From NCBI RefSeq assembly GCF_000934725.1, contig NZ_JYNS01000003.1, forward strand, positions 186,001-250,000: a stretch of 64,000 nucleotides of DNA. The letters are read 5' to 3'. Below are positions 58,422 to 64,000 of the stretch, in pieces. A program made the translations under genes and the position numbers. The notes under the pieces were generated by a model, which was given only the letters and a program-made list of their open reading frames with translations, did no database searches and was not told where the DNA came from. Source of the DNA: Methyloterricola oryzae (GTDB taxonomy: Bacteria; Pseudomonadota; Gammaproteobacteria; Methylococcales; Methylococcaceae). Every line of letters begins with the position of its first letter. The stretch's first letter is position 1.

Positions 58422-59058
58422 CTTCGCCCCTTGGCACAATACGCGTCTCGCTAACCTGGATCCCGCGTAAGCTGTGCTGACCACAGCGGGCGTGTCGTTA
58501 GAATGGGCGCCCGAAAGCCGCTTTATCCTGCACGACTCGCCTTAAGGCGGAGTCTATCGGAAGGGCTCCTGCCGTTAAACCCGGTTCATGGGCAGGGCTA
58601 ATGGTATTCATGATTTCTCCGGACATGCCAGGCCAGCCCGTCTATATAATTCCGAGGCGGGACGCGCCTATTGCAGTCAGTCAGAAAGAATAGGGACCTT
58701 CAAGACTTGCATTGCTCCTGAACAAAAAAATGTCCGACATCCCTGCCGGACAAAGTCACGCTAGGAGCTAACCAGAAATGCCGAATCCCTTCCGAGCATT
58801 CGCTCGGCATCCTTATGCTGGAATCGGCGCTGAAAATTCATTCCATGTGCCGACCTCGGGCACTGTTTAAGTCATACATTCTTGCGAACGGTTCTCATTT
58901 TTGTGGCCATCAACATGTTTGTCAAGTCTTGTTCCTTACGTTGATTGACGGACCATTCTAAGTGTGTGAAGACAGAGCCCAGCAAGGCAAACGCAGGCTC
59001 AATCGCTGCCCAGTCAGTGTTTCCCTGCAATAAATCGTCGTGGAGTTGCGTTAGATTG

Positions 59059-59086
59059 TTGACGGACGAATGGGAATGCTTATCAT
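59059..59086 (+). promoter_or_regulatory. Sigma-70 promoter of hemP
   Basis: TTGACG (59059-59064), a 16-bp spacer and TATCAT (59081-59086), each five of six to consensus. Transcription would begin at about 59093, the A of the hemP start codon. Confidence 0.6.
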
Positions 59087-59090
59087 TTGC
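59072..59090 (+). promoter_or_regulatory. Fur box over the hemP promoter
   Basis: The 19-mer from 59072 matches the Fur consensus at 14 of 19 positions and covers the -10 hexamer, the usual position for iron-dependent repression. hemP genes are commonly Fur-controlled. Confidence 0.6.
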
Positions 59091-59092
59091 CC

Positions 59093-59293
59093 ATGAGAAA
59101 ACCTACTATCTCGCTTTCTGACAAGCTGACCCAAGACAATTCCGAACCGACGAGCCATGATCGAGACCTTGAGCGCCCTAGGTGGCGAAGCGAGCAGTTG
59201 TTTGGAGCAAGCAAGGAAATCGTGATCGTCCACGACATGCAGGAGTATCGCCTGCGGATCACCAAGAGCAACAAACTCATCCTGAACAAATAG
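59093..59293 (+). CDS. hemP: Hemin uptake protein HemP
   Basis: A 66-residue protein ending with the HemP signature: SEQLFGASKEIVIVHDMQEY followed by RLRITKSNKLILNK. HemP is a small cytoplasmic protein linked to heme uptake and its regulation. There is no ribosome site before ATG 59093, and the promoter geometry places the transcript start on the ATG itself; TTG 59087 is an alternative but overlaps the Fur box. A heme-type TonB receptor lies 1.3 kb downstream. Confidence 0.85.
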   Translation: MRKPTISLSDKLTQDNSEPTSHDRDLERPRWRSEQLFGASKEIVIVHDMQEYRLRITKSNKLILNK

Positions 59294-59992
59294 TCATGCT
59301 GCCCCTGCATCCAAGGGGGCTATCGATCAGGCCGCGAAGTCCTAATTGGCAGTCACGAAGTGGAAACCCGCGAGGTAGCGAACCCCAAATGAACGACCGA
59401 TTGGGGAGCGACGTAGCGCATGATCCCACCAGCGACTTGGCCAATCCTGTCATTCCCGATTCCCGGCCAGGCGCAAGCAAGCGCGGGGTAAAAGCCACGC
59501 TTCCGGTCAGGCTTTCCGGCCTGCCGAACGTGCAGGGTTGTCCGCTTTACCCGTCTATCCCTAACCTGCCTCCACCTTCGGGCGGGCGGCCCCAAGGCCC
59601 AGCCAAAAAGAAATTCGTTGCTCTCACCCGCCCAAAGCCAGCGCCTGGTGCATACACGTAGGACGGAGATTTCCAAGCCAAACCCGGATGATCCGACGGA
59701 AGGGCAAGCCACCCATTGGTTTCCTCCCGTTTTGACCAAGCAAGCCGAGTCCAAGCGTGATCAGGATATGTTCCGGTAACGGGCGGTAACCATAGCAAAT
59801 TCGAAACGCACACTTGCAATTTTGTTGAGAAGCATTATCATTTAGGCGTGTCGAAAACTTGAACTGAGAAAAGCAGGATCCAAGGGCACCGCTTCCGCGA
59901 AGTGAATCGCCCCGCATGAGGGCAATGATCCGCAATGGCCAGGTTCCCAAGGATTTCTCAGGCAACCACTCCAGCGATGACAGGGGATTTTT
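59294..59992. other. Long gene-poor stretch between hemP and the small cysteine-pair gene
   Basis: A 699-bp stretch. A 160-codon frame crosses it from 59182 but it overlaps hemP, has no ribosome site and a Pro/Gly/Ser-rich composition without domain character, so I do not call it. The last 180 bases hold a promoter with a Fur box. A 26-codon leader ORF (59916-59996) ends by overlapping the next start (ATGA). The middle may be decayed coding sequence; I recognise nothing in it. Confidence 0.4.
59814..59845 (+). promoter_or_regulatory. Second Fur-box promoter
   Basis: TTGCAA (59814-59819), a 16-bp spacer and TATCAT (59836-59841). A 19-mer at 59827-59845 matches the Fur consensus at 13 of 19 positions. 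Spacing, -10 hexamer and the shared TTATCATTT core repeat the hemP arrangement. Confidence 0.5.
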
Positions 59993-60247
59993 ATGAGCGA
60001 TCATACGGGATGCAAACTTATCACTCTGGCCAAGTCCGGCGGCAACACCGTGGAATACTGCGAGGGTTGCCAGGCCTTTCACGTGAATTTGGGGGGTATC
60101 AGTCTGCACCTGAATCCCGAGGGCCTTCATTGCATAGGTGGGTTGATCAACCGGGCTCAGCGGCAACTCAAGGAACTTCAAGCACCGAAGCCCCATAAGT
60201 CCACTGGCAAGCGCGCCGCCGAAGCGGAAGAATTAATCGTGCATTGA
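59993..60247 (+). CDS. Small cysteine-pair protein in the heme region (84 aa)
   Basis: An 84-residue protein with an AGGGGA ribosome site 5-6 nt before the ATG. It contains CKLITLAKSGGNTVEYCEGC, a Cys-x2-Cys pair preceded by a strand, then VNLGGISLHLNPEGLHCIGG and a basic C-terminus. The layout (one Cys, then CxxC, then N-x-x-hydrophobic strands) recalls small DUF6686-like proteins, but I am not certain of that. It lies downstream of a Fur-box promoter and upstream of a heme receptor, so a role in iron or heme metabolism is likely. Confidence 0.65.
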   Translation: MSDHTGCKLITLAKSGGNTVEYCEGCQAFHVNLGGISLHLNPEGLHCIGGLINRAQRQLKELQAPKPHKSTGKRAAEAEELIVH

Positions 60248-60597
60248 GCAGTACGCCATCTGCCGAGGCTTCCGCCCCTGCCAGCTCGTGTCCGGGAGGG
60301 CACGGAACGCTCTGGCGGAACTGGACACCTTGAACGGACAGCAAGGCGGCCCGGATGAGCAAGCCACTGGGGAATCTCTGTCGTAATCGGTCTCTCCCGA
60401 AAGGGAGCACCGAAGAGATCAGCAACTCCCGAACTGAATCGACAGGAAAGGGACGGACGGACACGCCGTCCAGTCGACATGCTCTGCGCGAGGGTCGGAC
60501 CTGGCCCTGACGCAGACTCCAATTTGACCGAGCCAGCGACCGAGTGCCCAGGCACGAGGCAGCCAGCCCTTATTGCAAAACCTTTAAGGGTTCGTGT
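60248..60597. other. Leader region of the heme receptor gene
   Basis: A 350-bp gap. Two short perfect hairpins are present: CTCCC-GAAA-GGGAG near 60395 and GGACGG/CCGTCC near 60455-60471. No good promoter or Fur box is visible, so the receptor may be co-transcribed from upstream. A 51-codon ORF here has no ribosome site and is not called. Confidence 0.4.
60586..60590 (+). promoter_or_regulatory. Ribosome site deciding the heme-receptor start
   Basis: AAGGG lies 7 nt before GTG 60598, favouring that start over ATG 60604 or GTG 60544. Confidence 0.5.
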
Positions 60598-62916
60598 GTG
60601 AGGATGGCTGATCGTTTGTTCTGTTGTGCACTGTCGATGCTCGGGAGCCAGGGCGCCGTTGGCAATGATGCTCCGGCCACGGAGCCGGCGCACGAGTTGG
60701 ATACCGTGGTGGTCACCGCCACCCGCACCGAACGCGGTGTGCTGGATATCCCGGGTACTGCCTCTGTCATCGACGAGGCAACGGTGGAGCGCAGGCTGTA
60801 CCGCAATATCAAGGATCTGGTTCGCTACGAGCCAGGGGTCGATGTCCAGAACGACCCGCTGCGTTTCGGCCTGGCCGGCTTCACCATCCGCGGTATCGGC
60901 GGCAACCGGGTGCAGATGTCGGTCGATGGCGTCCGCATCCCGGACACCTTTTCCATCGGCACGTTCCAGAGCGGCCGCCGCAACATGGTGGACGTGGACG
61001 CGCTGAAAACCGTGGAAATCATTCGCGGCCCGGCCTCCGCCATGTATGGAAGCGATGGTATCGGCGGCGTGGTCAGTTTCGTAACCAAGGACCCGCGCGA
61101 CTACCTGGACCTCTTCGGCAGGAATCATTACGAAAGCCTGAAGCTGCTCTATTCAAGCGCGAACAAGGGATTCCTGCAGACCGCCGCGTTCGCCGGGGGA
61201 TGGAACGACCTGGAAGGCCTGCTGCTCATGACCCACGGCGAGGGCGACGAGATGAGCAACGAGGGAACGGACAACAGCCGATCCAGTTCGCGGACAGCCG
61301 CCAATCCGCAAGACACCCGCAACCTCAACCTGCTGGCCAAGGGGCTCTATCACTTCAATGTCGACAATCGCCTGCGCCTGACCGGGGAGGCGTTTGAAGA
61401 CCAGGTGCACACGGAGGTATTTCATCTTTATGGCCCCCAATACACGGGCCGCGACACGTATCAGCTGGTCACCCATGACCGACAGTCACGCTGGCGCGTC
61501 AGCCTCGAGCAGTCGATCAAGAACATAGACTGGCGATGGCTGGACACGCTCAGCTGGCAACTCTATGGCCAGGTCACCCGCGCGCGCCAGCAGACCGACG
61601 ACCGCAGCACCGTGCAGATCGACACCGGACTGGGCACCAACCAGTACCGTGACCGCGGCTTCAGCTACGACCAGGACATGATCGGCGGCCAAGCGGACGC
61701 CTCCAAGGCCTCCGAATGGGGACCGAGCACCCACCGCATCGCTTACGGGGCGGAAGCCTTCCGCACCCATGTGGAAGAACTGCGGGATGGCCTCTACACC
61801 AATCTGGATACCGGGGCGACGTCCAATTTCATCACCCCGGACAACTTTCCCCTGCGCGACTTCCCGAACACCGACACCCTTCGCGCCGGCGCCTACCTGC
61901 AGGACGAGATCGGCCTCTGGAACAAGCAACTGGAACTGCTGCCTGCGATACGCTTCGACTACTTCGGTTTGCGCACCGACCTCGACTATCTGTACGCCAA
62001 GGAGAACGTAGGCAATCCCGTCGTCGAACAGGACGTGACGGAATGGTCACCCAAGTTCGGCGTGCTCTATCACTTCACGGATTGGTTCGCCTTTCATGGT
62101 CAGTACACCGAAGGCTTCCGCGCCCCCAACTTCTCCGATGCCAACAGCGGCTTCGTGAACGCCGCGTTTGGCTATGCCTCGGTGCCCACCGCCAACTTGA
62201 AGCCCGAAACCGCCATCGGTGGTGAAGTCGGCCTGCGCGGGTCGGGTCCCGCCGGCAACTTCGATGCCACCTTCTTTCGTAACGATTACGACGGCTTCAT
62301 ACAGAACACCACGGTCTGCGACCCCGCGAACTCCGCTACCACCTGCAGCGCAGGCAACGTCGAGAACATCATCGTTTACCAGACCATCAACAATCCGGAC
62401 CCGGTCCGCATTCAGGGGTTCGAATTCAAGAGCCAGCTCTATCTGGGACCCTGGCCGTCGAACGCACTGGATGGTTTCAGCCTGCTCGGCAGTTACGCCT
62501 ATGCCGAAGGACAGAATCTGAAAAACGGGCAACCCATCAGTTCGGTCACCCCGATGAAAGGCGTGATGGGTGTGCGCTATGACGCCCTCTCAGGCAACTG
62601 GGGACTGGAAGCGATCCTCACCCTGGCCGCGCCCAAGAAGGAAGAGGACATCGACTTCGAACTCTCGGGCAGCGTGTTCCCCACCCCTGGCTATGGCGTC
62701 GTCGACCTCACCGGCTATTACCGTTTTGGAGAACACGTGAACCTGAATCTGGGCCTGTTCAACCTGCTGGACAAGAGATACACGGAATGGCAGGACCTCA
62801 GAACGCGAGGCGGCGACCCGCACGCGAGCCTGGACGGCAACAGCGCGACGGACATACGCGACCGCTACACCCGCCCCGGGCTGAATGTGGGCGCCAGCCT
62901 GCGCGTCGAGTTCTAG
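60598..62916 (+). CDS. TonB-dependent heme/hemoglobin-type receptor
   Basis: About 772 residues. A short signal peptide (MADRLFCCALSMLGSQGAVG) leads to the TonB box region ELDTVVVTATRTERG, a plug domain (VERRLYRNIKDLVRYEPGVD, VEIIRGPASAMYGSDGIGG) and a barrel ending ASLRVEF. The plug sequence is that of the TonB hemoglobin/transferrin/lactoferrin receptor family. The barrel has CDPANSATTC, a Cys-bounded loop. GTG 60598 is favoured by an AAGGG site 7 nt upstream. It imports heme or a heme-protein ligand using TonB energy. The neighbouring hemP supports this; exbB/exbD/tonB are not in the window. Confidence 0.9.
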   Translation: MRMADRLFCCALSMLGSQGAVGNDAPATEPAHELDTVVVTATRTERGVLDIPGTASVIDEATVERRLYRNIKDLVRYEPGVDVQNDPLRFGLAGFTIRGIGGNRVQMSVDGVRIPDTFSIGTFQSGRRNMVDVDALKTVEIIRGPASAMYGSDGIGGVVSFVTKDPRDYLDLFGRNHYESLKLLYSSANKGFLQTAAFAGGWNDLEGLLLMTHGEGDEMSNEGTDNSRSSSRTAANPQDTRNLNLLAKGLYHFNVDNRLRLTGEAFEDQVHTEVFHLYGPQYTGRDTYQLVTHDRQSRWRVSLEQSIKNIDWRWLDTLSWQLYGQVTRARQQTDDRSTVQIDTGLGTNQYRDRGFSYDQDMIGGQADASKASEWGPSTHRIAYGAEAFRTHVEELRDGLYTNLDTGATSNFITPDNFPLRDFPNTDTLRAGAYLQDEIGLWNKQLELLPAIRFDYFGLRTDLDYLYAKENVGNPVVEQDVTEWSPKFGVLYHFTDWFAFHGQYTEGFRAPNFSDANSGFVNAAFGYASVPTANLKPETAIGGEVGLRGSGPAGNFDATFFRNDYDGFIQNTTVCDPANSATTCSAGNVENIIVYQTINNPDPVRIQGFEFKSQLYLGPWPSNALDGFSLLGSYAYAEGQNLKNGQPISSVTPMKGVMGVRYDALSGNWGLEAILTLAAPKKEEDIDFELSGSVFPTPGYGVVDLTGYYRFGEHVNLNLGLFNLLDKRYTEWQDLRTRGGDPHASLDGNSATDIRDRYTRPGLNVGASLRVEF

Positions 62917-63324: not shown

Positions 63325-63520
63325 ACCAGACGAATCCAATGTTTATACCACCCCGCCGGTATTGCTCTGGAGCAATGGCGAACGAACGGCATGGGGCCGC
63401 ATGGTGGTGCCCGGCAACCCGCCTTCGACGCACCGTCCTCGCGCTGAGGAGCTGTGTCAGAACCCAACGAGCCCATCCATTTCAAGAGGAAAAACAACAT
63501 GTCACACAAGCACAGCCTGA
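63317..63520 (+). CDS. Possible small ORF overlapping its neighbours (67 aa)
   Basis: A 67-residue frame with GGGAGG 5 nt before ATG 63317, overlapping the upstream gene by 8 nt and the downstream secreted-protein gene by 22 nt. The first ~35 residues (ESNVYTTPPVLLWSNGERTA) look protein-like; the rest does not. The good ribosome site is the main support. Confidence 0.35.
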   Translation: MNEPDESNVYTTPPVLLWSNGERTAWGRMVVPGNPPSTHRPRAEELCQNPTSPSISRGKTTCHTSTA

Positions 63521-64000
63521 CCTTCGCCAGTTTATTGCTCACGTCAACCGGCCTGGTTTACGCCGACAGAGTCAACGGCCCGAATCCGTACGCGGCGGGT
63601 TACGGCTTCGATACCCCCAGCGAGGCCAATTGGGGTGGCTGGAACCGCGGCGACGCGGGAACCCTCTATGCGGAATGGGATAGCTTCAGCGACGCCTCCC
63701 ATGGAACGGCCACCGACCGCACCTCAGCTCCGGGAGTCGGCAGTTCCGGTACCACCGGCGCTTACCTGAGCTGGAATGCCGGAACCTTTGCGGCGGGTAG
63801 CGGCAATTTGTACAGCTTCAGCGTGCCGGAGGTCTTTCAGGTGAATCTCACAGGAACCACGGGCAGCGCGCCACTTCGGGTCGCCCTGCAGGTCGAGGAC
63901 TGGGGCACGCCGCTGGATACCGCCAACGTGCGGCTGAACGGCACCGCGCCCACATCCAGCGGCGTGACCTATTTCGAGTCACCGTACGCATCCAGCTTCG
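63499..64000 (+). CDS. Secreted hypothetical protein, cut by window end
   Basis: The first 167 codons of a protein running off the window. AGAGG lies 9 nt before ATG 63499. A signal peptide (KHSLTFASLLLTSTGLVYA) is followed by a Gly/Ser/Thr-rich, low-charge chain with tryptophan-aromatic motifs (GYGFDTPSEANWGGWNRGD, GAYLSWNAG, LRVALQVEDWG) like an extracellular beta-sandwich protein. It could be a PEP-CTERM surface protein, but the C-terminus needed to tell is missing. Confidence 0.75.
   Translation, partial: MSHKHSLTFASLLLTSTGLVYADRVNGPNPYAAGYGFDTPSEANWGGWNRGDAGTLYAEWDSFSDASHGTATDRTSAPGVGSSGTTGAYLSWNAGTFAAGSGNLYSFSVPEVFQVNLTGTTGSAPLRVALQVEDWGTPLDTANVRLNGTAPTSSGVTYFESPYASSF

Follow-up and report, generated by a model that had tools for sequence, protein, structure and literature searches.

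A conserved Fur-overlapped promoter predicted to produce a leaderless or near-leaderless hemP transcript in Methyloterricola oryzae and related Methylococcales

The Fur-repressed hemP, hmuP and chuP genes reported from S. maltophilia, B. multivorans, B. cenocepacia, Y. enterocolitica and C. violaceum encode members of the same protein family as the M. oryzae gene described here, stand first in a haem uptake locus and have a promoter whose -10 element is overlapped or adjoined by a Fur box. For hemP-type genes of such species, Fur binding and a response to iron have been reported (PMC9241770, PMC9131926, PMC7377471). In S. maltophilia, a hemP promoter fusion is described as rising approximately 10-fold on iron removal, whilst loss of fur raised the transcript of hemA, from the hemP operon, 63.9-fold (PMC9241770). 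B. cenocepacia differs from the present case in having a measured hemP start, which dRNA-seq placed immediately beyond the Fur box; BrrF, an sRNA processed from the 3' end of this hemP mRNA, has its own 5' end 282 nt downstream of that start (PMC7377471).

Leaderless mRNAs are also known from bacteria, in which a -10 element of the form TANNNT, around 12 bp before the start, lies directly 5' of an AUG codon that has no Shine-Dalgarno (SD) sequence (PMC3160421; PMC4376681). The M. oryzae locus shares these attributes, but differs in that the same stretch doubles as a predicted Fur operator, and is kept for one gene across genera. Zheng et al. (2011) reported leaderless genes in 15 of 239 gammaproteobacterial genomes, where they accounted for 3.0-5.7% of genes (PMC3160421); dRNA-seq of B. 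cenocepacia gave 72 starts exactly at a start codon and a further 42 within 10 nt, with 24 corresponding to tRNAs (PMC4603805), and 14 leaderless mRNAs are reported for Y. pseudotuberculosis (PMC4376681). The original prediction, in calling leaderless mRNA rare in Proteobacteria, was broadly fair but overstated the case, as these reports suggest that it is uncommon rather than exceptional (PMC3160421, PMC4603805, PMC4376681). Hence leaderless mRNAs and Fur-repressed hemP genes are each known already, and it is the conserved fusion of the two for a single gene that is new. Among the open-licence full texts in PMC, we found neither an RNA 5' end for any Methylococcales hemP nor a paper naming a leaderless hemP.

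The stretch of DNA that was analysed, hereafter the window, is 64,000 nt long and contains hemP at 59093..59293 on the forward strand, a gene of 66 codons plus a stop codon encoding a haem uptake regulator of the HemP/HmuP family (PF10636, E 2.7e-15, 56.4 bits against a cut-off of 25); the match to the E. coli-type family, NCBIfam NF007559, was below its cut-off (30.3 versus 77). Read directly from the forward strand, a -35 element TTGACG (59059..59064) is followed, after a 16 nt spacer, by a -10 element TATCAT (59081..59086), and the 6 nt discriminator TTGCCC is all that separates the latter from the ATG at 59093. The predicted transcription start (59093..59093, +), inferred from the sequence and from relatives, is the A of this codon, the seventh base after the -10 element, with a C at -1. 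A promoter scan of the window scored exactly 59059-59086 at 10/12; only four promoters reached at least this score on the two strands, and a start codon 5-9 nt downstream of one of them opened a reading frame of at least 40 codons only in the case of hemP and one other ORF (8393). A stricter pattern, TTGAC-N16-18-TATNAT-N6-9-ATG, has a single match in the 4.9 Mb genome, that at hemP, and the reversed pattern used as a control does not occur in it at all; the whole unit of promoter, Fur box and ATG at hemP is not a product of chance.

The hemP start codon has no SD match of at least three bases at a spacing of 4-11 nt, and so combines the features typical of a leaderless mRNA: an AUG start that has no SD and is preceded, at a distance of 5-10 nt, by a -10 element. 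Absence of an SD is nevertheless weak evidence at this locus, because SDs in the window as a whole barely exceed chance (23 of 42 ORFs, compared to 17.25 in shuffled sequence), and for the same reason SD usage across the window was uninformative as a control. Nothing unusual was seen in the predicted RNA structure at the hemP 5' end (z -0.72).

The predicted Fur operator (59066..59090, +) covers the -10 element and most of the discriminator, and is composed of two overlapping 19-mers 6 bp apart. One, at 59072-59090, matches the consensus at 14 of 19 positions in the reverse orientation and 13 in the other; the second, at 59066-59084, matches at 12. Taken singly, a 14/19 match is weak evidence, because 0.25 are expected per 64 kb of Markov-1 sequence, and two others are present in the window (57791 and 58597). 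The box is also weaker than those of most relatives, and by itself was rejected as proof of Fur control; it is, however, backed by Fur boxes of 13-17/19 at the equivalent position in relatives. Thus the main elements of the original prediction, namely a TTGACG-16 bp-TATCAT promoter before the hemP ATG, the lack of a ribosome binding site and a 14-of-19 Fur box over the -10 element, were all found as described, with the reservation that the last is weak when considered alone.

As that prediction had also proposed, hemP leaders were compared between relatives. The set comprised 248 distinct loci: the window's own, 80 from the order, 66 from the class, 48 from the phylum, 52 named loci, these being the ones nearest the query, and that of E. 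coli; the class and phylum matches are a sample of those detected. A Fur match of at least 13/19 was present in 140 loci, it overlapped a sigma-70-like promoter in 110, and an in-frame ATG followed in 106. The distance from the -10 element to the first in-frame ATG in these 106 is bimodal, with 27 loci at 6-9 nt, three at 13-17 nt, 50 at 26-60 nt and 26 beyond. One of the 27, L226 from the Geobacteraceae, has a poor -10 element and an SD, and was dropped. An SD of at least four bases is absent from all 26 loci left in this group, and present in 33 of the 50 at 26-60 nt (Fisher p 3.7e-8 with L226 kept, the rows not being independent). Since the other 17 of these 50, as well as E. coli hemP, also have no four-base SD, its absence is not proof of leaderlessness. 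Across the 26 loci, TTGAC, the combined Fur and -10 block and the ATG are conserved, the ATG having been a requirement of the search, and an A-rich patch lies just 5' of the -35 element. Little is conserved further upstream, where neither a second conserved promoter nor an SD was seen, and C occupies -1 in 77% of cases.

Such an arrangement could in principle arise through an ATG falling behind a Fur-regulated promoter by chance. The window's Fur box is not rare by itself, and chance ATGs do occur in the equivalent position at genes other than hemP; Fur-box sequence can itself create ATGs, as in-frame examples are frequent within the box (the bins at -18 and -14 hold 11 and 6 of the 106 loci). 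However, in-frame ATGs at 6-9 nt were found in 28 of 106 loci, as against 0-3 in the 4 nt bins from -6 to 25, those from 26 nt on representing led starts, and just two of 106 had an out-of-frame ATG at 6-9 nt. With the arrangement also found in nine genera of Methylococcales, chance placement is extremely improbable, and the offset counts led us to discard it. Equally improbable is translation from another codon, such as the in-frame TTG at 59087 or a non-ATG codon further downstream. The TTG lies within the Fur box, upstream of the predicted transcript start, and none of the tabulated relatives has a start codon at its position; the window contains no other ATG ahead of the HemP domain, and in seven relatives (L006, L015, L017, L019, L024, L092 and L126) the equivalent ATG is the only ATG, GTG or TTG before it. 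The residues that follow are alike between relatives, mostly beginning MNK or MDK, whilst the frame upstream simply reads the Fur box.

It is unlikely, although somewhat less so, that hemP is carried on a longer transcript from upstream and translated without an SD from 59093, with the promoter adjoining the ATG being weak or secondary. There is another forward-strand promoter match at 58477, and E. coli hemP has no SD despite its ATG being further from the Fur box; yet the 58477 site is approximately 600 nt away and scores only 9/12, and upstream conservation in the 26 loci is concentrated mainly in TTGAC with the -10 element. Taken together, the comparison points to hemP being transcribed, in all likelihood, from the Fur-covered sigma-70 promoter, with a start on the AUG or no more than a few bases from it, and hence to an mRNA that would be leaderless or nearly so. 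The exact base is less clear. Transcription is preferentially initiated at an A preceded by a C, and the A of the ATG with its C at -1 fits this preference; moreover, TTGCCC offers no purine near +1 other than that A. In 21 of the 26 loci, however, the discriminator is 8 nt long, and an A is often found 3-4 nt 5' of the ATG, so that transcription could equally well begin 1-4 nt ahead of the AUG as on it. A very short leader of this kind, which is a sub-case of the preferred explanation, may be considered a minority possibility. The original placement of the start on the A of the ATG is very probably correct to within 4 nt, and the broader proposal of a leaderless, Fur-repressed hemP is supported by the comparison of relatives: Fur repression of the gene, and a leader of no more than 0-4 nt, are both very probable.

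Genomes with hemP numbered 81 among the 301 from the order, 73 among the 369 sampled from the class and 94 among the 398 sampled from the phylum. Including that of the window, the Methylococcales contain 24 leaderless-type loci, in nine genera of two families. In f1, the family of the window, genera g1, g5, g12 and g14 have one each; in f8, they are found in g23 (14 loci), g34 (two), g35 (two), g36 and g44. The g15 loci of f1 (two, both with SDs), those of g25 (24 loci) and g26 (nine) and those of 11 further genera of the order are not of this type, and three g23 loci and one g35 locus fail to qualify in genera that are otherwise leaderless-type. One g23 locus that is a second copy of hemP, L116 in genome G111, retains the Fur and promoter unit but not the ATG, and in the g35 locus, L056 (from genome G271, as is L026), the unit is kept with the hemP ATG out of frame; either may reflect assembly error or decay. 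Outside the order, only L126, from the class, and L243, from a betaproteobacterial metagenome-assembled genome, qualify. Since both also have a relative of the small ORF found at 59993 in the window, shared ancestry or transfer of the locus is possible. On a poorly resolved HemP tree the leaderless label requires nine changes, compared to 21.0 when shuffled; the trait is clustered and does not represent one event, and a single origin was not adopted, the tree having too few columns.

The same kind of promoter is also found with a leader. The hemP genes of Solimonas, Hydrocarboniphaga and Panacagrimonas (L179, L181, L184, L186, L187, L189, L190, L193, L195 and L217) have a near-identical TTGAC-16-TATCAT-type promoter within a Fur box, but their -10 elements are 29-45 nt from the ATG, which is preceded by GAGGT, AGGAG or GGAG in nine of the ten, L184 having only GAG. 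Other led loci likewise carry a near-identical promoter and Fur unit 26-60 nt from the ATG, often with GAGGT or AGGAG. Three of the loci (L131, L154 and L155) contain TGATTGTCAACTGAGAATCA, a stretch reported for S. maltophilia hemP (PMC9241770); this type of promoter is 26 nt from the ATG, whereas in the window the ATG abuts the promoter. Hence the promoter and operator unit provides a conserved single-gene case existing in both led and leaderless forms in related bacteria, and because the two versions coexist, the effect of leader loss on the iron stress response could be tested by a single gene swap. Named relatives with the leaderless type are available for such work, these being Methyloglobulus morosus KoM1 (L182) and Methylobacter tundripaludum SV96 (L234).

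When iron is plentiful, iron-loaded Fur over the -10 element would be expected to block RNA polymerase; when it is short, Fur would leave the element, RNA would begin at or within 4 nt of the hemP AUG, and ribosomes would initiate on the 5'-terminal AUG of the SD-less message. By analogy with the published HmuP, HemP and ChuP systems, HemP may then increase production of the haem receptor encoded at 60604, perhaps by way of an element resembling the HmuP-responsive element (HPRE). The original suggestion that Fur relief would be coupled directly to translation by 70S ribosomes is a conjecture. A more speculative proposal, which we consider rather doubtful, is that approximately 40 bp in Methylococcales combine the promoter, the Fur operator and the translation start of hemP, selection having removed the leader or prevented its gain because the leaderless HemP message would be preferentially translated in cells starved of iron or haem; HemP would then be made first upon derepression, before the receptor mRNA with its leader is used.

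The receptor gene (60604..62916, +) encodes a TonB-dependent haem/haemoglobin receptor, scoring over the cut-offs of TIGR01786 and TIGR01785; a GTG at 60598 is also a possible start. The presence of such a gene close by is in keeping with a HemP/HmuP regulator, and it is the likely target of HemP. Around 35 nt before its ATG is AGCCAGCC (60561..60568, +), resembling the HPRE described in PMC9131926; the HPRE is a repeat of this sequence, of which the window has one unit rather than the full repeat. In the order, 66 of 81 loci have a similar unit, AGCCA[GA]CC, no more than 400 nt beyond hemP. Between hemP and the receptor, a second Fur site (59821..59845, +), with two 13/19 registers 6 bp apart, overlaps a TTGCAA-16-TATCAT promoter, both being identified by the respective scans, from which the downstream genes are likely to be transcribed behind a leader of around 145 nt. 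It is followed by a small conserved ORF (59993..60247, +), detected in the ORF list and in relatives, with the motif VEYCxxC...FHVN and no match in Pfam or NCBIfam. Relatives of this ORF are found at hemP loci L013, L018, L182, L233, L126 and L243, and also behind a Fur-type promoter in L336, L337 and L339.

Matches to the TTGAC-to-ATG pattern occur in 109 of 151 Methylococcales genomes, although the reversed control also gives matches. In L336, L337 and L339, from three g15 genomes, a Fur-overlapped promoter lies 5' of a short GGAGG-led ORF (MGSITPPLNE...); the ATG at the equivalent place opens a nine-codon ORF, after which the GGAGG-led ORF follows. In Methylomonas L030, the Fur promoter is followed first by a small gene (CPKLxxxIVxQL) and only then by hemP, which is consequently the second gene, and L032 and L005 have the same promoter. 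All six proved to be short ORFs or ATGs placed by chance, so that we do not claim a leaderless Fur regulon extending beyond hemP. Among the Fur-like matches at genes other than hemP that were inspected, L338 ended at the edge of its contig.

Two further sequences flank this region. A match to the RyhB-like sRNA family (RF00057) at 58725-58790 on the reverse strand is full-length but weak, scoring 24.9 bits where the gathering score is 55, and is not claimed as an sRNA. It has no clear Fur box before it, and a good intrinsic terminator, situated 300 nt 5' of hemP, forms its end. At 63454-64000 on the forward strand, a reading frame with no Pfam or NCBIfam match adjoins the haem receptor; its product is possibly secreted, and only the first part of it is encoded before the window ends.
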